From contig NC_010574.1 of the NCBI RefSeq assembly GCF_000165395.2, positions 1,302,001 to 1,366,000 on the forward strand: a DNA stretch of 64,000 nt, written 5' to 3'. Made by a program: the position numbers and the translations under genes. The notes under the pieces are model-generated. The model saw only the letters and a program-made list of their open reading frames with translations. It was not told the origin of the DNA and made no database searches. This document shows positions 20,382 to 52,600 of this stretch, one piece after another. Within the stretch, counting starts at the first letter, position 1, and every line of letters begins with the position of its first letter. The stretch comes from Babesia bovis T2Bo. Lineage: Eukaryota; Apicomplexa; Aconoidasida; Piroplasmida; Babesiidae.

Positions 20382-20454
20382 GCCTTTGTGGCGCAATGGA
20401 TAGCGCGTCGGACTTCTAATCCGAAGGTTGCGGGTTCGAGTCCCGCCGGAGGTA
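20382..20454 (+). tRNA. tRNA-Arg (anticodon UCU)
   Basis: A 73-base cloverleaf: 7-bp acceptor stem with some G-U pairs, D stem GCGC/GCGC, anticodon stem TCGGA/TCCGA around loop CTTCTAA (anticodon TCT), 5-base variable region, T stem GCGGG/CCCGC with loop TTCGAGT, discriminator A. Internal RNA polymerase III promoters match well: A box TGGCGCAATGG and B box GGTTCGAGTCC. No intron. CCA is not encoded, as expected for a eukaryote. Confidence 0.98.
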
Positions 20455-34693: not shown

Positions 34694-37600
34694 ATGGTAA
34701 GTGTGTGGATATAATGTTGGAAACACCATGTTGTAGGCACGTCGAGGTGCATACGGATCCAGAGATGGTGAAGAAGGCTACTACTCTGTATCTGAGGATG
34801 GTGAGTCAAATCGTTGTCTTCTATTACATATGTGCTATGCGTTAACAAAATCACCATGTTTTAACGTTTTTTCAAGCATATTGAGAGCGGTTTAACCATG
34901 GTATCCTATAGTTAACACCCGCTCTGGATGTGCAGGCGTGTCTAATTTGCTATTACTATTGTGTTGATTAACGTTATTCTTTAAGAATGCTTTGTTGTAT
35001 TAAAGGTGTTGAAATGTTTTACAGAAGCTTTGGAGGATAACAGAGATCACTTCCAGGAAGGTGATGATGAAGTTGTGTCTGAGGAGGGAGATGATCTCTT
35101 TGAGGAAGAGACGGGTTTCGTGGTTGGTCAGGACGATTTAGAGCGTGAAACAGCTGGATTTGCGAGGCTGGGTATCGATGTCGATGCTTACGATGAATCA
35201 CTGCTTGATGAAGAAGAATACGTTGATGACCCTAGGGCGCGTAGAGCTGCTGAACGCCGTCTAAGATACGAAGAGCAGCAGAGGCAAATTGAGAGTCGTG
35301 GGCATCAGCAACTATGGCGTAAAATCTTGAAATATGATGAAGAAACGGCTGAAGATGGTATATTTGAGCGTATAGTACAACGTGTGGAGAGCAGGCGTAA
35401 ACAGCTACAAAAGGGTGATACTGACGCTCCTGACTTCACCATGATAGATGGAGCTAAAACGATATTGCAGGCAGATCCGTCAGCAAGTCACTTTGATGAC
35501 AAGTTCCAACAGGCTATTGATACCCTTTTTAGGTATTTCATTCACAGGTTCAAGTTAAATGAGAAGGATACTAAATATTATTATATGGATCGTATCGAGA
35601 AAATGATACAGGACGATGCTAGCATTCTTAAAGTGTCTGTACCACACTTGATGTCATTTCATTGTGAAAACATAATTCCATGGTTGGAGTTCAATCCTAT
35701 GGGCGTTCTGCCAGTGCTCAACGACTGCATCAATGTAGAGGCTCACCGGGAGCGCAACCGTTTATACCGTGGTAGATATTGCAAAGTTGCTTTAATTGAA
35801 TGGCCATTTTCGACACAGCTTTGCAATTTGCGTAGTCGTGAAATGAACACGTTGGTAAAGATCAGTGGTATAGTTGTTCGCCGCGGTCTAGTGCTGCCAA
35901 AACTCAGGGTTCTCTACCTTAAATGCAGCCTTTGTGACTCCGGTATTGATTTGCCGATATACTTCAGCGACCAGCAGAAACCGGTATACCCGAATAAGTG
36001 TTCATTCTGTGGCTCTGCGGCTTTTAATGTTGACCGTATTAACACGGTGTATGACGATTACCAGAAGGTTACTATTCAGGAGCCACCTCAATCTGTTCAT
36101 GCAGGAAGGACTCCTAGGCAGCGCACTGTAATATTATCTGGAGATTTAGTGGATACATGCAGGCCTGGAGATTTGATACAGACATTGGCCATATACAAAG
36201 GACGATATGACGTTGTTCTTAATATCAAGCACAACTTCCCCGTTCTTAAGACGGAGCTTGAGGCGATATCTGTAGAAGTAGAAACAAACCAGACAGTCCA
36301 GGAGGATCTGACAGATGAAGACATCCAGCACATTAAGAAGCTGTCTAAGGACCCATGCATTCGTGAACGGCTGATAGCGTCCATTGCTCCTGCCATATTC
36401 GGTCAGAAGGCTGCTAAAACTGCCATTTGCTGTGCTTTATTCGGTGGTGTTGGCAAGGGTTCTGGTGCCAATAGGAGCGAGGCAGCTCCTGTTAATGCGG
36501 GGTTGGCAGCGATTAATCCCGAATCTTCTCACCGGATTAGGGGTGATATTAACGTACTGTTGGTGGGTGACCCAGGTCTTGGTAAATCGCAATTTCTCAC
36601 TTATGTGCACAAAACGGCTCCTAGAAGTGTATTAACAACTGGTAAAGGTGCGTCTGCTGTGGGTCTCACAGCGGGTTTGAGGCGTGACCCTGCTACTGGC
36701 GAATGGGCTTTAGAAGGTGGTGCATTGGTGTTAGCTGATCTAGGGGTTTGCTGCATTGATGAGTTTGATAAGATGTCTAACAAGGATCGTGTTTCAATAC
36801 ACGAGGCTATGGAACAGCAATCTATTTCCATTTCCAAGGCCGGTATTGTGACATCTCTCAAGGCTAGGTGCTCCGTTATTGCAGCAGCTAATCCAATTTA
36901 TGGTAGGTATGAACCATCGTTAACGTTTAAAGAGAACGTCGATTTTTCCGATCCCATTTTAAGTCGTTTCGACCTTATTATTGTCATGAAGGATGTCCCC
37001 AATACGCATGAAGACTTGTTATTGAGTGAGTATGTCATTACAAATCACCAGTTGATGCACCCGAAGATTGAAAATGTGGCCAACTATCAGCAGGTAGTCC
37101 AAAATCTGAAAAACAGGATTAGCGCGTCCTCTGCCTGTGAACCTTTGTCTCAGAAGGAATTCTCCAACTATCTGAAATATGCTAAAGCCAACTGTGTACC
37201 TACACTTTCACCTGAATTTTACCGCGTCATAGAAGGTAAACTTGCTGGATTCTACAGTTCAATAAGGCAAAAGACAGCTTATGGCGGAGGTTATCCGTTA
37301 ACATTGCGTCACATCGAGTCTGTTATTCGTATTGCTGAAGCTAATGCTAAGATGCGGTTATCGAATCATTTGAACTCAAATGACGTTGACATGGCAATTG
37401 CAACTCTTTTGGAATCTTACATTTCATCGCAGAGACACTCTGTTGCCTGCAAGCTTGCGAAGGAGTACTCTCGCTATCGCATGTTGTTCGACGGTGACGA
37501 CCATGTGCTTGTACAGATTTTGCGTAACACCATTCAGGCACAAATTGAGAGAAACGTGCGTCGTCGTGATGCCATGAACATACATCGCGGTGAAGAAGGT

Positions 37601-37795
37601 ATGGATCTGGAAGACGTTGAGTTGGACGTCGAAGAGGACACGGCTGTCGATATTCCAATATTTATACAAGTTGCTAAAGGTTTCAAGTTTGACCCCGATC
37701 GTGTTACTCGGTGGCTGCATTCGGCTTCATTTAACGACTCATTTAGCATTATCAATCGCAACGGCAAGGAGAGCATAATTGTGAAATCATTTTAA
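34694..37795 (+). CDS. MCM2: DNA replication licensing factor MCM2
   Basis: Subunit of the hexameric MCM2-7 helicase loaded at replication origins. Exons 34694-34696 (the ATG alone), 34737-34800 and 35025-37795; introns of 40 and 224 bases; 945 residues. After an acidic N-terminus, a C4 zinc finger spans about 323-349 (CSLC ... CSFC). The AAA+ core has Walker A GDPGLGKSQ at 537-545, Walker B CCIDEFDKM, the presensor AAANPIYGRY, and the arginine finger SRFD at 669-672. The acidic N-terminus and C4 finger are typical of MCM2. The reading frame from 35006 begins inside intron 2. It converges on the CX9C gene (131 bases between stops). Confidence 0.96.
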
Positions 37796-41218: not shown

Positions 41219-43678
41219 TCAACCAGAAACAGCACAGAACTTATCCCTGGCGCTTTCTGAATCGAAACAATAGAATTTGCCAGCTAGGTTGCCTATTTGA
41301 TTTAATAACAACTCATCACCAGATGATTTGAAATAGCCGCAATGGCAGGCACGAGAGAAAAGTATCGTTGCATTCCTATCTATATTCTTATAGACGCTTT
41401 CATAGAAAGTCGCCAAATAGAAGAATACAAACATCGCGATCTGCTCAGGAGTGTATGTAAATACCGGTTGACTTACTAGGGCACAAAGGAATACAACGCG
41501 AGTAAGTACATCACGCAGCCTCATACGGTATGGGCCATAGGGATATATACCGAACATACGCTTGACAAAGCGAAGACGATTAGCACTATCCTTAGCACCC
41601 TGCTCATATTTAATACGCAGAATCTCCTCTGACTGAGCACTCTTCACAACCTTGGCTTGGTGTTTCTGCACGGCCTCTGGTGAAAGCCTACTAGAAAACC
41701 GAAGTGCTATACGTGACCACAAGGCACCACGGTCAAACGCAGATACTGATTTCAATGTGGCGAAACCGAAACACAAACCAAACGCAAAACCACCCTGTGT
41801 ATTCATTAACATAGCAAATAAAAACCTACCAAGTGGGCATGATTACTAACGCCTACTCCCGGTAATATTATTTCCAGGAGAGAGATTGTTATGGCTATGA
41901 CAATTAGAGCCATTGGTGATCTCAGGTTGTCCCAATGCTCTACCGTGTAAGGAATGAATGCTCCATACAAACTAAACAGTGACCCAGAAGCTCCCCAGCA
42001 TGGGATACAAGGAGACATACTGGCGTGAACCAGATTGGCACTGTAACCACCGAATATATACAGCGCTAATGTGCGTTTGAATCCCCAGTCCTAGAATATG
42101 ATTAGCAAAACAAAAGTGGCCACTTACCGGCTCAATCACATAGAGAAGCAACATGTTCATCAAACAATTACAAAGAAGATGCCACCTTCCTCCATGTAAG
42201 AATATGGAAGTAAGCAACCTAGAGGACTCTCCATAGATACGAATTGTATTAGCCGATAGTGCGCCAACAATAGTGCCTATACGGTAATTAGGTCCGTCAG
42301 GAGGAGCAAGTGAAGTTGCCAAATTCCCTTTATGCACATAATCAACTGGATAGCCTTTATCACTCGCTCCAGCACCAAGGAATCCACGTTCGGCAGCAGT
42401 TGTTTTGAGGTTATTCTCACAACCAACATAACCCAGGTATGATAAGATAGCTTTACCCTCATGTCTGTGAGTATAATCCACCTCACCTATACAGCGACCG
42501 TTAAAGGTAGCTCTGTTGATGAATAACTCAAACATAAAAACAACAATTATCAGTATTGTAGTACTGATTGCCAATATCATCTTACCGGGAAATATCTTCT
42601 CCTTCACTTGAATACGAATCCAACATGGACGGCGACGCATACCAAACATGTTACGGCCACGCGAGGCACGCTCGGGTTGCTCTGGCTGACTAACACCAGG
42701 GCTGGAAAAGGATTGGGACATAGCCTGTCTAATACTAGCGTCATCAGTGGAAGCAGTGTCCGCCAAAGTATGAACACGACGACCAGCATTGGAGCTTACC
42801 TGAGATGAACCGCCAAAAGAGCCCGTACCTTTAATCACTGATCGGGATTCACGAGAGAATCTCAATTTTGATAGTGTAGTACTCAATTTGGACTCAGCTT
42901 TCGATGATCTGGGTTGTTCGCTGGTGTCTTTAGGTTCTTGTGGACCTAAGGAGGTAGATGGTGTGGTACTAGGTCGAGGTTCAGCTTTCGATGGCCTAGG
43001 TTGTTCGCTGGTGTCTTTAGGTTCTTGTGGACCTAAGGAGGTAGATGGTGTGGTACTAGGTCGAGGTTCAGCTTTCGATGGCCTAGGTTGTTCGCTGGTG
43101 TCTTTAGGTTCTTGTGGACCTAAGGAGGTAGATGGTGTGGTACTAGGTCGAGGTTCAGCTTTCGATGGCCTAGGTTGTTCGCTGGTGTCTTTAGGTTCTT
43201 TCGAAACACCAGATACAGAGGCCGGTATCTTTGCTGGTGTACTCGTCGCTGGGCGCTGCAATGCACGACTGGCGGACTCTTCCACCATGTTACGGGCAGC
43301 CAATATTTTTTCATATTTCTCTGCGAGGAATTTGGCTCGTGCTCGTTGATCAGTTCTCGGATCACCAAGAGGAGCCTTCGAGGTTAAGCTGCTCTGCCCA
43401 GCTTGCGAATTTTGGTCTTTAGATTCATCTTTCTCAGCAGCACGCTTGAATTGATCTCTCAAAGCAGCCACATTACCAGCTTTCATAGACGACGAATCCT
43501 TCGACACGTTACTCGGTTTTTCTCCACCTTTATCCTCTTTGCTATCATCATTCTTATCACTATCATTAATCTTCTTCCTGAATCCCCGATTCACCATATC
43601 CTTCACAAAACCGCCTTTAATAGCGTTAAGTGAATGCCTATTAGCATTCTTCTTATCATTCGAATCATTATCTCCCAT
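41219..43678 (-). CDS. ROM4-like rhomboid protease, copy 1 (with tandem-repeat N-terminus)
   Basis: Intramembrane serine protease; apicomplexan ROM4 proteins shed surface adhesins during motility and invasion. Exons 42128-43678, 41830-42090 and 41219-41794 (introns 37 and 35 bases); 795 residues. The N-terminal 360 residues are cytosolic, Ser/Pro/Lys-rich, and include about four copies of a 30-residue repeat. The rhomboid core starts with a membrane helix after PGKM; catalytic Ser552 lies in GASGS and His603 in HAHLGG, the latter restored by splicing out intron 2. After the core comes a helical linker and C-terminal membrane helix, where this copy differs from copies 2 and 3. Starts at ATG 43678. 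Confidence 0.92.
42870..43205 (-). repeat. Coding tandem repeat, 90-base period
   Basis: About 3.7 units of 90 bases inside exon 1 of rhomboid copy 1, each encoding a 30-residue Pro/Ser/Glu/Lys-rich unit (contains EPKDTSEQPRPSKAEPRPST). The central units are nearly identical; the one at 42870-42961 has diverged. Absent from copies 2 and 3. Confidence 0.9.
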
Positions 43679-43985
43679 TTTGGTGCACAGACTAGACTAT
43701 CAGAATAATGGCCACGAGCACATCTCACACATATGTAAACAAAAAACCAACACACGCGGGAAATAGTAATATTTTTATAGTAGTCTATAAAGAAATGTGA
43801 TGTCGATATATTCGTGAGTTGCATATCTCGCACATCAACGTGAATAATCAATAATAACGCATGTAATTAGGGATGCAACACACGCCCAATTACACATCAA
43901 GGGGTAAATAGAACACATCCATTGATGACACATGTTTTCGTGTTGTATATTAGTTTTACGTGTATACACCCTGGGTAATATATAT
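43679..43985. promoter_or_regulatory. Proximal upstream region of rhomboid copy 1
   Basis: The first about 85 bases upstream of the ATG are shared with copies 2 and 3; the next about 140 bases differ between copies, then similarity resumes at 43916. Inferred 5' UTR and promoter; no experimental element identified. Confidence 0.45.
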
Positions 43986-46410
43986 ACAATCCCATCACAC
44001 AGCTGCCTATATAAAATAATATAAGTCGCCTACACACTTTGTAACAAACCGAATGTGTAGTGCATTAGACCGGTAAACACAATGCTAATAGAGGCATAAA
44101 ACCACAAAGGGTCACTGAATAAAACGGTAGATTACATATAACGTGTTATATGCCTTGTGGTCAACAACTTTACCACGTTTAGTGATTGGCGCCATTCCCG
44201 TCAATAGTACCTTATTTACGACGATATAGCACAGATAATGGTCTAACAAAAGTATGTTACACATTGTTTCACATGCTTACGCAAGGAAGATGCGCAGTCG
44301 GTTTCGACCGCAGGGCAGAAGTGGTTCAACCAGTCTAACAGCATTTATCTTTTCTAATCGCTGATTGACTTTTTACATAGTGATGAATGTGATAAGTCAC
44401 CTATGGTTAATACCACTGCTTGCTATTATTTCTCACAAAAAACATTCCAGAGTGCTTCGCTTTGGAAGCAGTAATACTTTCCCGCCAGTGATCCTATTTG
44501 CTTCGACAAAATCGAAGGACCGGTAAGATCACGCAAATAACCACAATGGCACAGTGGAGACACAAAACGAATGCCGGCACGGTTTAGCCAAGTGTAGAAC
44601 CTCTCGTTAAACGTAGAATAGTAGAAGAATACAAACATCGCGATCTGCTCAGGAGTGTATGTAAATACCGGTTGACTTACTAGGGCACAAAGGAATACAA
44701 CGCGAGTAAGTACATCACGCAGCCTCATACGGTATGGGCCATAGGGATATATACCGAACATACGCTTGACAAAGCGAAGACGATTAGCACTATCCTTAGC
44801 ACCCTGCTCATATTTAATACGCAGAATCTCCTCTGACTGAGCACTCTTCACAACCTTGGCTTGGTGTTTCTGCACGGCCTCTGGTGAAAGCCTACTAGAA
44901 AACCGAAGTGCTATACGTGACCACAAGGCACCACGGTCAAACGCAGATACTGATTTCAATGTGGCGAAACCGAAACACAAACCAAACGCAAAACCACCCT
45001 GTGTATTCATTAACATAGCAAATAAAAACCTACCAAGTGGGCATGCTTGCTCACACCACGTACGAAGGAAAAAAACTCAATGCTAACGAATGCGACGGAA
45101 ATTAACAAGAGGAGCAAGGGACTGCGCAAATTATCCCAGTGTTCTATTGTATAAGGGATAAAAGCACCGTAGAGTCCAAAAAGGGACCCGGAAGCTCCCC
45201 AGCATGGGATACAAGGAGACATACTGGTATGGACAAGGTTTCCTCCAATACCGGCTACTAAATATAATAGGGATGTGCGTTTGAATCCCCAGTCCTAAAA
45301 TGAAATTAATAGAGTGAACGCAACAACTTACCGGCTCAATCACATAGAGAAGCAACATATTCATTAGACAATTGGTGAAAAGATGTGTGAAGCCAGCGTG
45401 CAAAAAGATTGCCGATAGAATACGAAACTTCTCATTATATAAGCGAACTTCATTGGCAGATACAGCCCCGATTATGGATGCAATACGAACATTCGGTCCA
45501 TCTACCACAGCAGGAGCGTGAGCGAGTCTTCCATCTGTAACTATATCATCGGGGTATCCAGCGTCGCTTGCTGCTGCACCAAGGAATCCACGTTCGGCAG
45601 CAGTTGTTTTGAGGTTATTCTCACAACCAACATAGCCTATGAATGAAAGTGTCGATTTCCCTGCAAGGCGGTTACTGTAATCTACCTGACCAATGCAACG
45701 GCCATTGAATGTTGTCTTGTTAAGTAACAATTCGAACAAGAAGACTACGATCATCAGTATTGTAGTACTGATTGCCAATACCATCTTACCGGGAAATATC
45801 TTCTCCTTCACTTGAATACGAATCCAACATGGACGGCGACGCATACCAAACATGTTACGGCCACGCGAGGCACGCTCGGGTTGCTCTGGCTGACTAACAC
45901 CAGGGCTGGAAAAGGATTGGGACATAGCCTGTCTAATACTAGCGTCATCAGTGGAAGCAGTGTCCGCCAAAGTATGAACACGACGACCAGCATTGGAGCT
46001 TACCTGAGATGAACCGCCAAAAGCACGTGCACCCTTTATTTCGCTAGAACCCATAGAGGTAGAAGGTGTGGTACTAGGTTGAGATTCAGCTTTGCTAATA
46101 AGTGATTCATCTACTTTGTTACGATTAAATAAACCACGCTCATATTTCTCGGCCAAAGACTTGGCAACAGATGGTTTATCTTTTGTATCCGATTGTGCCT
46201 GAGATAAAATATTTTCTGAATCCTCTATGCCTGCATTGCGGTGATGACCCTTATCCGTGATATCATTAGAAGGTCCATCAACATTGCTATCATCATTCTT
46301 ATCACTATCATTAATCTTCTTCCTGAATCCCCGATTCACCATATCCTTCACAAAACCGCCTTTAATAGCGTTAAGTGAATGCCTATTAGCATTCTTCTTA
46401 TCATTCGAAT
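43986..46410. repeat. Tandem duplication unit A (2745-base period)
   Basis: Contains rhomboid copy 2, its 3' flank and the upstream block of copy 1. Reads as near-identical to 46731-49155; the first differences seen are at the edges (for example one base near 46411 versus 49156). Confidence 0.85.
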
Positions 46411-46423
46411 CGTTATCTCCCAT
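44426..46423 (-). CDS. ROM4-like rhomboid protease, copy 2
   Basis: Exons 45332-46423, 45034-45294 and 44426-44998, same 37- and 35-base introns as copy 1; 641 residues. The frame can be read upstream to a TTG at 46435, but ATG 46423 matches the starts of the other copies. Catalytic Ser399 (GASGS) and His450 (HAHLGG). It shares with copy 1 the first about 45 residues, the stretch from GGSSQVSSNAG to FPGKM, and most of exon 3 up to AMFVFFY, all apparently identical; in between and at the C-terminus it differs, including the whole first luminal loop. The translated protein appears identical to copy 3. Confidence 0.92.
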
Positions 46424-46730
46424 TTTGGTACACAAACTATACTATCACAATAATGGCCACGAGCACATCTCACACATATGTAAACAAAAAACCAACACAC
46501 GCGGGAAATAGTAATGTTTTTATATTAAATTATAAAGAGATGTAATATTAAAGAATCTTCTTTAAAGTACTGCACCGTCACATGAATAAATAACCCGGTG
46601 CATGCACGTCCTTCAGATAAGAATAAGTAAAAATGAATATTACGGCTAATCAATAGAACACATCCATTGATGACATATGTTTTCGTGTTGGATATTAGTT
46701 TTACGTGTATACAGCCTAGGTAATATATCT

Positions 46731-49155
46731 ACAATCCCATCACACAGCTGCCTATATAAAATAATATAAGTCGCCTACACACTTTGTAACAAACCGAATG
46801 TGTAGTGCATTAGACCGGTAAACACAATGCTAATAGAGGCATAAAACCACAAAGGGTCACTGAATAAAACGGTAGATTACATATAACGTGTTATATGCCT
46901 TGTGGTCAACAACTTTACCACGTTTAGTGATTGGCGCCATTCCCGTCAATAGTACCTTATTTACGACGATATAGCACAGATAATGGTCTAACAAAAGTAT
47001 GTTACACATTGTTTCACATGCTTACGCAAGGAAGATGCGCAGTCGGTTTCGACCGCAGGGCAGAAGTGGTTCAACCAGTCTAACAGCATTTATCTTTTCT
47101 AATCGCTGATTGACTTTTTACATAGTGATGAATGTGATAAGTCACCTATGGTTAATACCACTGCTTGCTATTATTTCTCACAAAAAACATTCCAGAGTGC
47201 TTCGCTTTGGAAGCAGTAATACTTTCCCGCCAGTGATCCTATTTGCTTCGACAAAATCGAAGGACCGGTAAGATCACGCAAATAACCACAATGGCACAGT
47301 GGAGACACAAAACGAATGCCGGCACGGTTTAGCCAAGTGTAGAACCTCTCGTTAAACGTAGAATAGTAGAAGAATACAAACATCGCGATCTGCTCAGGAG
47401 TGTATGTAAATACCGGTTGACTTACTAGGGCACAAAGGAATACAACGCGAGTAAGTACATCACGCAGCCTCATACGGTATGGGCCATAGGGATATATACC
47501 GAACATACGCTTGACAAAGCGAAGACGATTAGCACTATCCTTAGCACCCTGCTCATATTTAATACGCAGAATCTCCTCTGACTGAGCACTCTTCACAACC
47601 TTGGCTTGGTGTTTCTGCACGGCCTCTGGTGAAAGCCTACTAGAAAACCGAAGTGCTATACGTGACCACAAGGCACCACGGTCAAACGCAGATACTGATT
47701 TCAATGTGGCGAAACCGAAACACAAACCAAACGCAAAACCACCCTGTGTATTCATTAACATAGCAAATAAAAACCTACCAAGTGGGCATGCTTGCTCACA
47801 CCACGTACGAAGGAAAAAAACTCAATGCTAACGAATGCGACGGAAATTAACAAGAGGAGCAAGGGACTGCGCAAATTATCCCAGTGTTCTATTGTATAAG
47901 GGATAAAAGCACCGTAGAGTCCAAAAAGGGACCCGGAAGCTCCCCAGCATGGGATACAAGGAGACATACTGGTATGGACAAGGTTTCCTCCAATACCGGC
48001 TACTAAATATAATAGGGATGTGCGTTTGAATCCCCAGTCCTAAAATGAAATTAATAGAGTGAACGCAACAACTTACCGGCTCAATCACATAGAGAAGCAA
48101 CATATTCATTAGACAATTGGTGAAAAGATGTGTGAAGCCAGCGTGCAAAAAGATTGCCGATAGAATACGAAACTTCTCATTATATAAGCGAACTTCATTG
48201 GCAGATACAGCCCCGATTATGGATGCAATACGAACATTCGGTCCATCTACCACAGCAGGAGCGTGAGCGAGTCTTCCATCTGTAACTATATCATCGGGGT
48301 ATCCAGCGTCGCTTGCTGCTGCACCAAGGAATCCACGTTCGGCAGCAGTTGTTTTGAGGTTATTCTCACAACCAACATAGCCTATGAATGAAAGTGTCGA
48401 TTTCCCTGCAAGGCGGTTACTGTAATCTACCTGACCAATGCAACGGCCATTGAATGTTGTCTTGTTAAGTAACAATTCGAACAAGAAGACTACGATCATC
48501 AGTATTGTAGTACTGATTGCCAATACCATCTTACCGGGAAATATCTTCTCCTTCACTTGAATACGAATCCAACATGGACGGCGACGCATACCAAACATGT
48601 TACGGCCACGCGAGGCACGCTCGGGTTGCTCTGGCTGACTAACACCAGGGCTGGAAAAGGATTGGGACATAGCCTGTCTAATACTAGCGTCATCAGTGGA
48701 AGCAGTGTCCGCCAAAGTATGAACACGACGACCAGCATTGGAGCTTACCTGAGATGAACCGCCAAAAGCACGTGCACCCTTTATTTCGCTAGAACCCATA
48801 GAGGTAGAAGGTGTGGTACTAGGTTGAGATTCAGCTTTGCTAATAAGTGATTCATCTACTTTGTTACGATTAAATAAACCACGCTCATATTTCTCGGCCA
48901 AAGACTTGGCAACAGATGGTTTATCTTTTGTATCCGATTGTGCCTGAGATAAAATATTTTCTGAATCCTCTATGCCTGCATTGCGGTGATGACCCTTATC
49001 CGTGATATCATTAGAAGGTCCATCAACATTGCTATCATCATTCTTATCACTATCATTAATCTTCTTCCTGAATCCCCGATTCACCATATCCTTCACAAAA
49101 CCGCCTTTAATAGCGTTAAGTGAATGCCTATTAGCATTCTTCTTATCATTCGAAT
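46731..49155. repeat. Tandem duplication unit B (2745-base period)
   Basis: Second copy of the unit, with rhomboid copy 3 and the upstream block of copy 2. Exact identity over most of the length suggests a recent event, gene conversion, or both; an assembly artefact should be excluded with long reads. Confidence 0.85.
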
Positions 49156-49168
49156 CATTATCTCCCAT
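47171..49168 (-). CDS. ROM4-like rhomboid protease, copy 3
   Basis: Exons 48077-49168, 47779-48039 and 47171-47743; 641 residues, identical in translation to copy 2 and offset by exactly 2745 bases. Catalytic Ser399 and His450 are present, so it should be active. Its immediate 5' flank (49169-49240) matches copy 1 better than copy 2 (for example the same bases at 49172 and 49178 as at 43682 and 43688), which indicates recombination between copies. The copy nearest the ancestral upstream neighbour (gene at 49831-50773). Confidence 0.92.
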
Positions 49169-49399
49169 TTTGGTGCACAGACTAGACTATCAGAATAATG
49201 GCCACGAGCACATCTCACACATATGTAAACAAAAAACCAACACACGCCAAAAATGGCAAATCTAGTATATTAGATGATAAAAGGTCGTTATTTTAAAGAA
49301 TCATTACACAGAGCACTGCACCGTCATAGGAATAAATAACGTCGTGCATGCAAGTCTTCCTAAAAAGAATAACTAAAATAATAAATGACGAAGCCATTT

Positions 49400-49840
49400 A
49401 GTGAAACACATCCATTGATGACACATGTTTTCGTGTTGTATATTAGTTTTACGTGTATACACCCTGGGTAATATATATACAATCCCATCACACATCTGTC
49501 TGTATACAAAACGAATATCAGTCGTCTACACACTTTGTAACAAACCGAATGTGTAGTGCATTAGACCGGTAAACACAATGCTAATAGAGGCATAAAACCA
49601 CAAAGGGTCACTGAATAAAACGGTAGATTACATATAACGTGTTATATGCCTTGTGGTCAACAACTTTACCACGTTTAGTGATTGGCGCCATTCCCGTCAA
49701 TAGTACCTTATTTACGACGATATAGCACAGATAATGGTCTAACAAAAGTATGTTACACATTGTTTCACATGCTTACGCAAGGAAGATGCGCAGTCGGTTT
49801 CGACCGCAGGGCAGAAGTGGTTCAACCAGTCTAACAGCAT
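49400..49840. repeat. Third copy of the rhomboid upstream block
   Basis: About 440 bases matching 43916-44341 and 46670-47086, with some differences around 49495-49525. It lies between rhomboid copy 3 and the end of the next gene and includes that gene's stop codon and last two codons; homology to the other two copies stops there. It is probably the rhomboid promoter region, carried with each duplication. Confidence 0.8.
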
Positions 49841-50773
49841 CCAGCGGTTGGTTTCCTGCGTCCTTGGGTACGTTCCCTACGCTGAGGAAGAGCAGCACCA
49901 GCGCTAATGCAGCCGCCATTTGGAGTCATTTCTGAAGAGTAAACAAAGCATTTAACTCCCTTCTGCCTGTTGTTAGAAGCCTCAGATACCAAGGTGTGGA
50001 TATAGTTTTCAACATTCTTCTGGTTCAATTGAGCCTCGTCTTCAGAGTCATTAATGTGCTCCAAATACTGCTGATCATTAATGGTAATTGAAGCGTCAAA
50101 CTCCGCAGTCTGACTCTGTAACTCCGAAGGGGAGTTGGCATTAGCAACAGTGTGAACAACGTCAGTCTCCTGCTTTACCGTTGAACTGCTAAAACACATT
50201 CCAGTTCCGCACATCATAGAAACACCAGCATCCTCCTGCTTGTATACATCACTAAGAACCTTCAGCCAAACAATAGCCAAGGTTGCCATCTCGTCGCAAC
50301 AAACCATGCGCTCGGGGTTAGAGTCCGATAAGTCTTCCATAGAAGAACCAATGAGGTAAGGAGCAACCCGATTGTGGTCCATAAGACCTAAGCATAATTA
50401 TAGAATGATATGCAATCGACAACAAAACATGTGCACATTCCAGACAACAAATATGCGCCACCAAGTGGCATAGCCAACATGAATATATACAAGCATAATT
50501 TGTCTAATGCCATTCAACAACAACGTAATGATAATATAACGCCAACACAAGCTAACCTTCACTGTTTGTCACCTCACGTATGTAATCCTCGAGACCACAT
50601 TCGTAAAAAAAGTTTCTCAAAAGAAGCTCAACAATCTCATAGGGAATTCTGTCATCACCAACAATGTCATGTTGGACAAAAACGCTCCTTAGACGTTGCT
50701 CAATACCGGGGTAGGACTGTAGCACAGTCTTCTTGAGCTCCTCGAGGGGAATAGTACTGCTGCAGAAAACCAT
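49831..50773 (-). CDS. Hypothetical protein next to the rhomboid array
   Basis: Exons 50557-50773 and 49831-50387 with a 169-base intron (phase 1); 257 residues. Exon 1 encodes a helical domain (PLEELKKTVLQSYPGIEQR ... IPYEIVELLLRNFFYECGLEDYIREV) that could be a pair of EF-hand-like or DEP-like helices without obvious calcium ligands. The middle is polar; the C-terminus is Arg/Gly-rich and ends in two cysteines (AGCC), which could be a lipidation site, though the protein is not a GTPase. No family recognised. The terminal codons are the breakpoint of the rhomboid duplication. Confidence 0.75.
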
Positions 50774-51242: not shown

Positions 51243-52043
51243 CTAGAAAGTGAAGCAAAACTCAGACACGCCGGTACGAGAAACAGATACCGCACGCATT
51301 AGACCGCCTGAACTATTATCGATGTCAATCGCGTACTTGATAGCCCTCTTTAGCAGTGACAAACACTGATCGCGAGACATGTCAGGCTCGTAGTTGTCGT
51401 GTAAAAATGCTGTAATGTATCCTGAACCCGATCCACTAGCCACAAAGTGTGGTACTTTCAACAGGGTGCCACCCAATGTCACATTGTATATCTCGGGACC
51501 GTGTTGCATATCATAACCTCCCAATATTATACCACAGTACAGCTGCTCACGGTACTCATGTACAATCTTGTGTGTCGCAGTAGCCAGTGCTTTAAGAGGA
51601 GGGTAAACCATACTCTCGTCGAATCTGTAACTATATTCACTCTCAGTAGGCATTTCGCTGTCAATCTGCATCGCATCGTCACTACCAATAGCATCATCAC
51701 CAGACGCACGTCCGCTCTTGCGCAATTGTAGACATAAAGCCTGTGCATGATAACGTACTATAACAGATAGCATCTGCGAATCGGCAGCTGAACCGGAACG
51801 TAGCATAAAAACATTTGGAAGAATGCGAGTAATCTTGCGAGCCACACGATTTACAACAATAGGACCAGATGATGTACGACTATCCGCAGCCAAAAGTATA
51901 CCATCACGATAAATCATCGCGATAATAGTCGTACCCATGCTTATGTCATGAGCACGATCGTCAGCCGCGGTGGAGCCAGACACACACTCCTGTGCGATTC
52001 CGGCTTCCGAAATGCCATCATAATAACTACAATCTACCATCAT
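51243..52043 (-). CDS. PSMB6: 20S proteasome subunit beta type-1 (caspase-like)
   Basis: Catalytic subunit of the 20S core with post-acidic cleavage specificity. 266 residues from ATG 52043; the frame continues to TTG 52136 but has no ATG there. A 37-residue propeptide ends in Gly, exposing Thr38 as the mature N-terminal nucleophile (TTIIAM). Asp17 and Lys33 of the mature enzyme are seen in AADSRTSSG and VARK. RSGSAADSQ and the GSGS region fit beta1. Oddity: an acidic, Asp/Ser-rich insertion of about 35 residues (around GDDAIGSDDAMQIDSE) sits between the second helix and the PPLKAL helix, absent from the usual beta1. A further 5' exon cannot be excluded. Confidence 0.93.
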   Translation of the reverse strand: MMVDCSYYDGISEAGIAQECVSGSTAADDRAHDISMGTTIIAMIYRDGILLAADSRTSSGPIVVNRVARKITRILPNVFMLRSGSAADSQMLSVIVRYHAQALCLQLRKSGRASGDDAIGSDDAMQIDSEMPTESEYSYRFDESMVYPPLKALATATHKIVHEYREQLYCGIILGGYDMQHGPEIYNVTLGGTLLKVPHFVASGSGSGYITAFLHDNYEPDMSRDQCLSLLKRAIKYAIDIDNSSGGLMRAVSVSRTGVSEFCFTF

Positions 52044-52600
52044 TTCTGATATATTTTTATACGATGTAGACAAATAACAAGTAGTATCACGTTGCGCCCT
52101 ATGGAAGGACAAACCCAAGCAACCACTACCGCACAATACAATGAAAGTAATATTAACTAGAAGTTACACTAGAATTTTATAAAAAGCATACTATTGTAGC
52201 CGAAATGATTTTAATAACTAACATCGCAGTTATATACACCGGGCGTAGTACCGAACATATCAATGTTACTTAGGAGATTAGACATCATAACTACTTAGCA
52301 AGAGTACCTAGTGAACACATTATAACATAATTAATATACAAAAGCGGTTATAATGTTGTTAAACCAAGAAACATACTCCTTGTTAACTAATGCTTGCAGC
52401 ACTGATATTAACGCTCTAAGTTTGCACATTTAATATGTTATAACCATACAAATAGTTACGCATAATAAATCAAAGTTCTACATACAATCCCATGTTGATG
52501 TGTAACAGCACGCGTAGAGGGCACCTTGTGTGGAGAGTGGATGAGAATGATCCTATGAACTCGATCGACATTGTCCACAGATATTATAATATTAGCTAAA
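52044..52600. other. Divergent intergenic region between beta1 and RAB11
   Basis: About 560 bases; its first 93 bases are an open continuation of the beta1 frame that begins at a TTG, more likely 5' UTR. No RNA gene seen. Confidence 0.5.

Follow-up and report, generated by a model that had tools for sequence, protein, structure and literature searches.

The 64,000-nucleotide stretch analysed here (the window) corresponds to positions 1302001-1366000 of contig 2 of Babesia bovis T2Bo and carries, at 41219-49168, three ROM4-type rhomboid protease genes, all intact and arranged head-to-tail on the minus strand (Table 1). A first-pass annotation, made from the letters of the sequence, had proposed three such genes and a ROM4-like tandem expansion; both proposals were confirmed, and the array is already known, having been published in 2022 as rom4.3, rom4.4 and rom4.5 (Gallenti et al., 2022; PMC8956091). 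That article describes five rom4 genes within 36 kb of chromosome 2, with rom4.3, rom4.4 and rom4.5 head to tail, and its Table 1 lists them as BBOV_II005950, BBOV_II005940 and BBOV_II005930, respectively; the copies in the window were named by their order and length against that table. Another article (PMC9806345) uses the opposite convention, calling BBOV_II005930 ROM4.3 and BBOV_II005950 ROM4.5. The published array and that of the window agree in the three genes, their order, the identical pair, the 29-amino acid (aa) repeats and the polymorphic proximal upstream segment; spacers of 747 bp match as well, a value that PMC8956091 gives once for each spacer, with 678 and 748 elsewhere. A well-supported addition to this description is that rom4.5 is a mosaic, in which blocks nearly identical to rom4.3 and rom4.4 down to silent and intronic sites alternate with blocks diverged to or nearly to synonymous saturation.

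Gene models, rhomboid motifs and further rom4 loci

Each gene contains three introns of 37, 35 and 36 nt, and the three-intron translations match exactly two database entries named as Babesia bovis T2Bo rhomboid family proteins (P0001 and P0002). The first-pass annotation had recognized that intron positions are shared among the copies; it counted only two, overlooking the third, which has GT...AG ends and is left out of both database proteins. As this intron is in frame and free of stop codons, the two-intron reading, which yields 641 and 795 aa instead of 629 and 783 aa, is also tenable. Table 1 of PMC8956091, an article that gives 3-7 introns for rom4 genes, lists 629 aa for ROM4.3 and 641 aa for ROM4.4; since the latter equals the two-intron length, the discrepancy for ROM4.3/ROM4.4 probably reflects one unspliced 36-nt intron in the annotation. 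Of the four relatives compared, B. ovis, B. sp. Xinjiang and B. ovata have gene models without the 12 residues of intron 3, and the B. caballi model carries an insert at this position that could be a retained intron.

The Rhomboid domain (PF01694) was detected with 84.5 and 87 bits in the 629- and 783-aa proteins, respectively, against a cut-off of 22.6 bits (E 1.1e-23 and 1.8e-24). The GASG and HAHLGG catalytic motifs, previously noticed in every copy, are present at residues 397 and 448 of the 629-aa protein and 550 and 601 of the 783-aa protein, and the HxxxN motif is intact in both protein types as well (HLFTN at 347 and HLLCN at 500). Judged by these motifs and by their relatives, all three products are predicted intramembrane serine proteases of the ROM4 group. 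Among the matches listed, the best four outside B. bovis come from other Babesia species (B. ovis, B. sp. Xinjiang, B. caballi and B. ovata) and carry the name ROM4 or rhomboid-like protease 4; an alignment-based protein search returned no additional relatives among 7978 candidates scored. The comparison covered these four proteins; PMC8956091 also names counterparts in B. bigemina and B. divergens. At 90% clustering, the B. ovis ROM4 protein (P0003) falls in a cluster of two sequences on one contig, like the rom4.3/rom4.4 cluster, and B. ovis may have a near-identical ROM4 pair or two gene models of one gene.

Members of the ROM4 group of Apicomplexa have a six-helix core, a seventh transmembrane helix and a long N-terminal region. 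The structure model of rom4.3, built from six sequences, was poor (mean predicted local distance difference test score, pLDDT, 43.8), its helices fitting a six-plus-one plan, and a hydrophobicity scan recovered only part of the transmembrane helices. A profile search of solved structures matched four distinct sequences over the rhomboid core, all of them iRhom1 or iRhom2, which are inactive rhomboids. Like the ROM4 proteins of Toxoplasma gondii and Plasmodium falciparum, the rom4 products combine a Rhomboid domain, the Ser-His motifs and an extra hydrophobic segment past the rhomboid core; this likeness in topology is general background, the sequences compared here being those of Babesia. The number of predicted transmembrane helices reported in PMC8956091 is 5-7. 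The same article gives direct orthology to the T. gondii and P. falciparum ROM4 to rom4.1, not to rom4.3, rom4.4 or rom4.5, and by place and strand rom4.1 lies outside the window; for these copies, the adhesin-processing role invoked in the first-pass annotation is putative and does not hold as written.

The whole genome was searched (8,234,832 bases in 8 contigs; the best candidates were scored and match counts are lower bounds), which revealed two further rom4 loci on contig 2, answering the earlier suggestion to look for copies outside the window. The protein search gave nine exon-level matches at E <= 0.001, six of them in the three window genes and three at C2:1371454-1372336 (+) and C2:1379709-1379873 (-), loci that would correspond by place and strand to rom4.2 and rom4.1. 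Two genome-wide DNA searches, one using the 1998-bp rom4.3 gene as query and the other a 438-bp upstream segment, gave at least 7 and at least 3 matches, respectively, and all those scored fall within this array.

Table 1. Features of the rom4 array in window coordinates. Blocks are given in rom4.3 codon numbering, with synonymous (dS) and nonsynonymous (dN) divergence and aa identities for rom4.3 (copy 3) versus rom4.5 (copy 1); pS, proportion of synonymous differences.
Feature	Position	Strand	Remarks
rom4.3	47171..49168	-	copy 3; 629-aa rhomboid; spliced translation equals P0001 exactly; Pfam Rhomboid
rom4.4	44426..46423	-	copy 2; 629 aa if intron 3 is spliced; equals P0001 exactly
rom4.5	41219..43678	-	copy 1; 783 aa; equals P0002 exactly; Pfam Rhomboid, E 1.8e-24
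rom4.3 introns	48076-48040, 47778-47744, 47425-47390	-	
rom4.4 introns	45331-45295, 45033-44999, 44680-44645	-	
rom4.5 introns	42127-42091, 41829-41795, 41476-41441	-	
87-nt (29-aa) tandem repeat, N-terminal region of rom4.5	42870..43200	-	three overlapping 157-nt copies, 87-nt spacing
Homogenised block 1, codons 1-47	49029..49168	-	dS 0; one nonsynonymous difference; 46/47 aa identical
Diverged N-terminal block, codons 48-133	48769..49028	-	dS 1.64; dN 0.51; 43/86 aligned aa identical; gappy alignment
Homogenised block 2, codons 134-214, to first hydrophobic segment	48527..48768	-	242-nt identical run; dS 0; 80/81 aa identical
Diverged block, most of catalytic core, codons 215-447	47791..48526	-	dS 2.07; dN 0.26; 157/233 aa identical
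Homogenised block 3, codons 448-565, with introns 2 and 3	47367..47790	-	424-nt identical run; dS 0.01; 118/118 aa identical
Diverged C-terminal block, codons 566-629	47171..47366	-	dS beyond correction (pS 0.83); dN 0.61; 27/63 aa identical
315-nt segment at 5' end of each unit, identical in all three	49526..49840, 46775-47089, 44030-44344	-	
Diverged proximal upstream segment of rom4.3	49248..49404	-	counterparts upstream of rom4.4 and rom4.5

Blocks of identity and divergence along the array

The rom4.3 and rom4.4 proteins are identical and their coding sequences (CDSs) differ at a single base, 49157, which is synonymous. For this pair, the proposed 2745-base offset holds without exception along at least 2077 identical nt (49156-47080 versus 46411-44335), and the next identical run (47140-46730 versus 44395-43985) carries it on. 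The proximal upstream DNA of the two genes is identical at 105/154 aligned sites. The pair either arose by recent duplication or was converted over the CDS and 3' flank, with distinct proximal upstream segments being kept.

Copy 1, by contrast, is no near-copy of the other two, and its mosaic structure, which matters for dating the expansion, had been overlooked. The rom4.5 protein is 75% identical to the others across the protein alignment. The longest in-gene run shared by copies 1 and 3 measures 424 nt, compared with a maximum of 57 nt in 5000 shuffles of the 1995 aligned gene columns (455 mismatches) of these two copies. Both this run and that of 242 nt are shared by copy 1 with the two other copies, while a 219-nt run across the start codon, common to copies 1 and 3, is split into 67 and 128 nt in copy 2. 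Block 3 includes the catalytic His together with two more hydrophobic segments and their linker. Within the diverged core, 50-column windows between long runs are mostly 44-86% identical, with short shared runs at 48525-48498, 48379-48321, 48103-48071, 48042-48018 and 47972-47936, the last of which covers the catalytic Ser region; a piece of 20 codons (264-283) shows a dS of 0.07. Identity at silent and intronic sites in sharp blocks next to diverged ones is the pattern by which gene-converted tandem paralogs are recognized, and it is seen here. On the tentative six-plus-one plan, the diverged parts would comprise much of the N-terminal region, most of transmembrane helices TM1-TM5 with loop 1 and the C-terminal tail, and the homogenised parts the N-terminus, the pre-TM1 segment with the start of TM1, the catalytic Ser stretch and TM6 to TM7.

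In rom4.5, Arg and Lys abound in the residues that directly precede TM1. According to the positive-inside rule, the Arg/Lys-rich side of a membrane segment is cytosolic, hence the 29-aa repeats of the N-terminal region would be cytosolic, which fits a role as surface-exposed antigen badly. PMC8956091 counts 3.5 of these repeats in T2Bo.

At the 5' end of each unit, the 315-nt segment identical in all three copies begins at the end of the last long open reading frame (ORF) of the upstream neighbour gene, whose stop lies at 49831, and thus marks the duplication joint. The neighbour occupies 49831-50773 (-), with its start read by eye, and its 3' end or 3' flank is copied into each rom4 unit; its last-exon ORF had no Pfam match. 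PMC8956091 gives 467 bp upstream of rom4.3, which would place the annotated end of the neighbour at ~49636, inside the 315-nt segment, instead of at 49831. Closer to the genes, the proximal segment is identical at 61/152 aligned sites between rom4.3 and rom4.5 and at 82/151 between rom4.4 and rom4.5; PMC8956091 describes upstream identity as high, with a polymorphic upstream segment of ~120 bp. The sites that differ among the three flanks switch partner in groups: ten consecutive sites at 49525-49495 have rom4.4 equal to rom4.5, five at 49477-49424 have rom4.3 equal to rom4.5, a mixed segment follows at 49404-49248, and at 49193-49157, ending inside the CDS, five sites again have rom4.3 equal to rom4.5. 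This grouping points to sequence exchange among the units on more than one occasion.

Origin of the mosaic

Blocks with dS of 0-0.01 alternating with blocks at dS of about 1.6 or more are strong evidence for repeated partial gene conversion acting over an older duplication, and tandem duplication followed by divergence and then by partial conversion between neighbours very probably explains the three genes. The repeat boundaries show that a unit running from the end of the upstream neighbour gene through one rom4 gene was duplicated, after which the rom4.5 lineage and the rom4.3/rom4.4 lineage diverged to synonymous saturation. Later, partial gene conversion between the neighbours would have overwritten codons 1-47 and parts of the 5' flank, as well as the segment before TM1 and the region from TM6 through TM7 with introns 2 and 3. 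The C-terminal tail, the greater part of the catalytic core and much of the N-terminal region are still diverged and would have escaped it. This would probably leave one protease encoded twice, under different promoters, and a third enzyme with a different core and N-terminal region.

Several points weigh against this sequence of events, some of them concerning the age of the rom4.3/rom4.5 split. At silent sites the split is old; dS values become unreliable once sites are saturated. Over the 213 columns of the diverged core, rom4.5 and B. ovis are 69% identical, rom4.3 and B. ovis 59%, and rom4.3 and rom4.5 64%; the best core tree joins rom4.3 and rom4.5 as sisters with support of 84/87 (91/91 with the C-terminal block), as a duplication within the B. 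bovis lineage would predict, and has a rom4.3 branch 2.5 times as long as that of rom4.5 (0.49 versus 0.20). Constraining rom4.5 to group with B. ovis gave p-AU values (approximately unbiased test) of 0.053 for the core and 0.042 with the C-terminal block added. When codons touching identical runs were removed (173 columns), sister support fell to 65/35 and the p-AU of rom4.5 with B. ovis was 0.127 (70/75 and 0.114, respectively, for run-free columns plus the C-terminal block); the run-free trees lose the sister support and do not reject the alternative, so the split is not placed before that of B. ovis. In addition, the array was read from one assembly of one strain, which does not show ongoing conversion or the donor of each tract. 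A similar pattern would also result if a diverged allele or paralog had replaced blocks in one large event, and selection may account in part for the short runs shared within the core.

A recent tandem triplication inside B. bovis, with some regions evolving fast, possibly under selection, and with no gene conversion, would account for the sister grouping. It also agrees with relative-rate tests over codons 215-447, where rom4.3 is faster when the outgroup is B. ovis, B. sp. Xinjiang or B. ovata (p 0.0032, 0.0077 and 0.0015, respectively) but not when it is B. caballi (p 0.19). PMC8956091 comes close to this account in regarding the array as recently expanded in-paralogs, whereas the block-wise synonymous divergence found here points to an older split overlaid by partial conversion. 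Synonymous change has reached saturation in the diverged blocks and is almost absent from those that separate them, and selection on the protein does not speed synonymous change; simple recent duplication as the sole account is disfavoured on these grounds. Partner switching is clustered in the 5' flank, and over the C-terminal block the relative-rate test was significant with one of four outgroups only (B. ovata, p 0.013; others, p 0.088-0.64). Taken with these data, a recent triplication appears improbable. A further idea, that purifying selection alone holds the shared blocks identical, draws on the functional constraint expected of the C block, with its catalytic His and membrane segments. 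This has virtually no chance of being correct: silent sites are identical as well, intron 2 is identical across the three genes while intron 1 of rom4.5 differs from that of the pair, which protein-level selection cannot explain, and block 3 is 63% identical to the B. ovis protein (74/118), below the 69% (146/213) of the diverged rom4.5 core.

It was also considered that rom4.3 and rom4.4 could be one gene placed twice in the assembly, as the identical run of at least 2077 nt might suggest. PMC8956091 relies on the T2Bo genome record and amplified rom4.3 and rom4.4 together in R1A, hence it provides no independent copy count. A unit doubled by error would have the same flank, while the intergenic DNA of these copies differs, with differences scattered down to 49157 in the CDS. 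This distinct intergenic DNA largely answers the concern over an artefact raised in the first-pass annotation, though not fully for an array read from a single assembly, and leaves such an error only a slim chance.

Expression and biological role of the array

Rhomboid proteases cleave membrane proteins within or beside a membrane helix. Each of the three enzymes would thus act on single-pass membrane proteins at such sites, probably at the parasite surface. The first-pass annotation had suggested gain of dosage or diversification; the array has the material for both putative effects, namely a protein-identical pair and a diverged third copy, respectively. With the pair, the parasite could gain dosage or time the two copies separately, and rom4.5 could act on a different range of substrates. 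A tentative and rather unlikely extension is that repeated conversion keeps some modules common (N-terminus, membrane-proximal segment and TM6 to TM7) while loop 1, the C-terminal tail and most of the core that faces the substrate are allowed or driven to diverge, which would produce a set of proteases built on one chassis but differing in the substrates they accept.

Published expression data for the trio, as given in the two articles, disagree. By reverse transcription quantitative PCR (RT-qPCR), rom4.3/rom4.4 were 218-fold higher in induced sexual stages (PMC8956091), whereas in the RNA-seq data cited in the same article rom4.4 and rom4.5 are raised in bovine stages and rom4.3 does not change significantly. 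PMC9806345 reports all three as raised in blood stages, by 150-, 14- and 6-fold, with BBOV_II005940 at 150-fold and BBOV_II005950 at 6-fold. As rom4.3 and rom4.4 differ at one coding base, the RNA-seq difference reported between them rests on non-coding reads or on choices of read assignment.

The mosaic also implies that overall gene identity misleads on the age of the array and cannot date its expansion, and that whole-gene rom4 trees mix histories. Homogenised stretches are known from tandem arrays such as those of Trypanosoma brucei. The T. brucei arrays likewise consist of tandem duplicates (PMC1855330), and the rom4 array differs from them in that conversion would cover only parts of each gene, in alternation with synonymously saturated blocks. 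The terms "gene conversion" and "recombination" do not occur in the main text of PMC8956091, and its supplementary Figures S1 and S2 may already show parts of the pattern.

Outside the array, an MCM helicase ORF at 34985-37795 (+) and a proteasome subunit ORF at 51243-52163 (-) flank the rom4 genes, and a tRNA-Arg (TCT) gene is present at 20382-20454 (+) of the same window.

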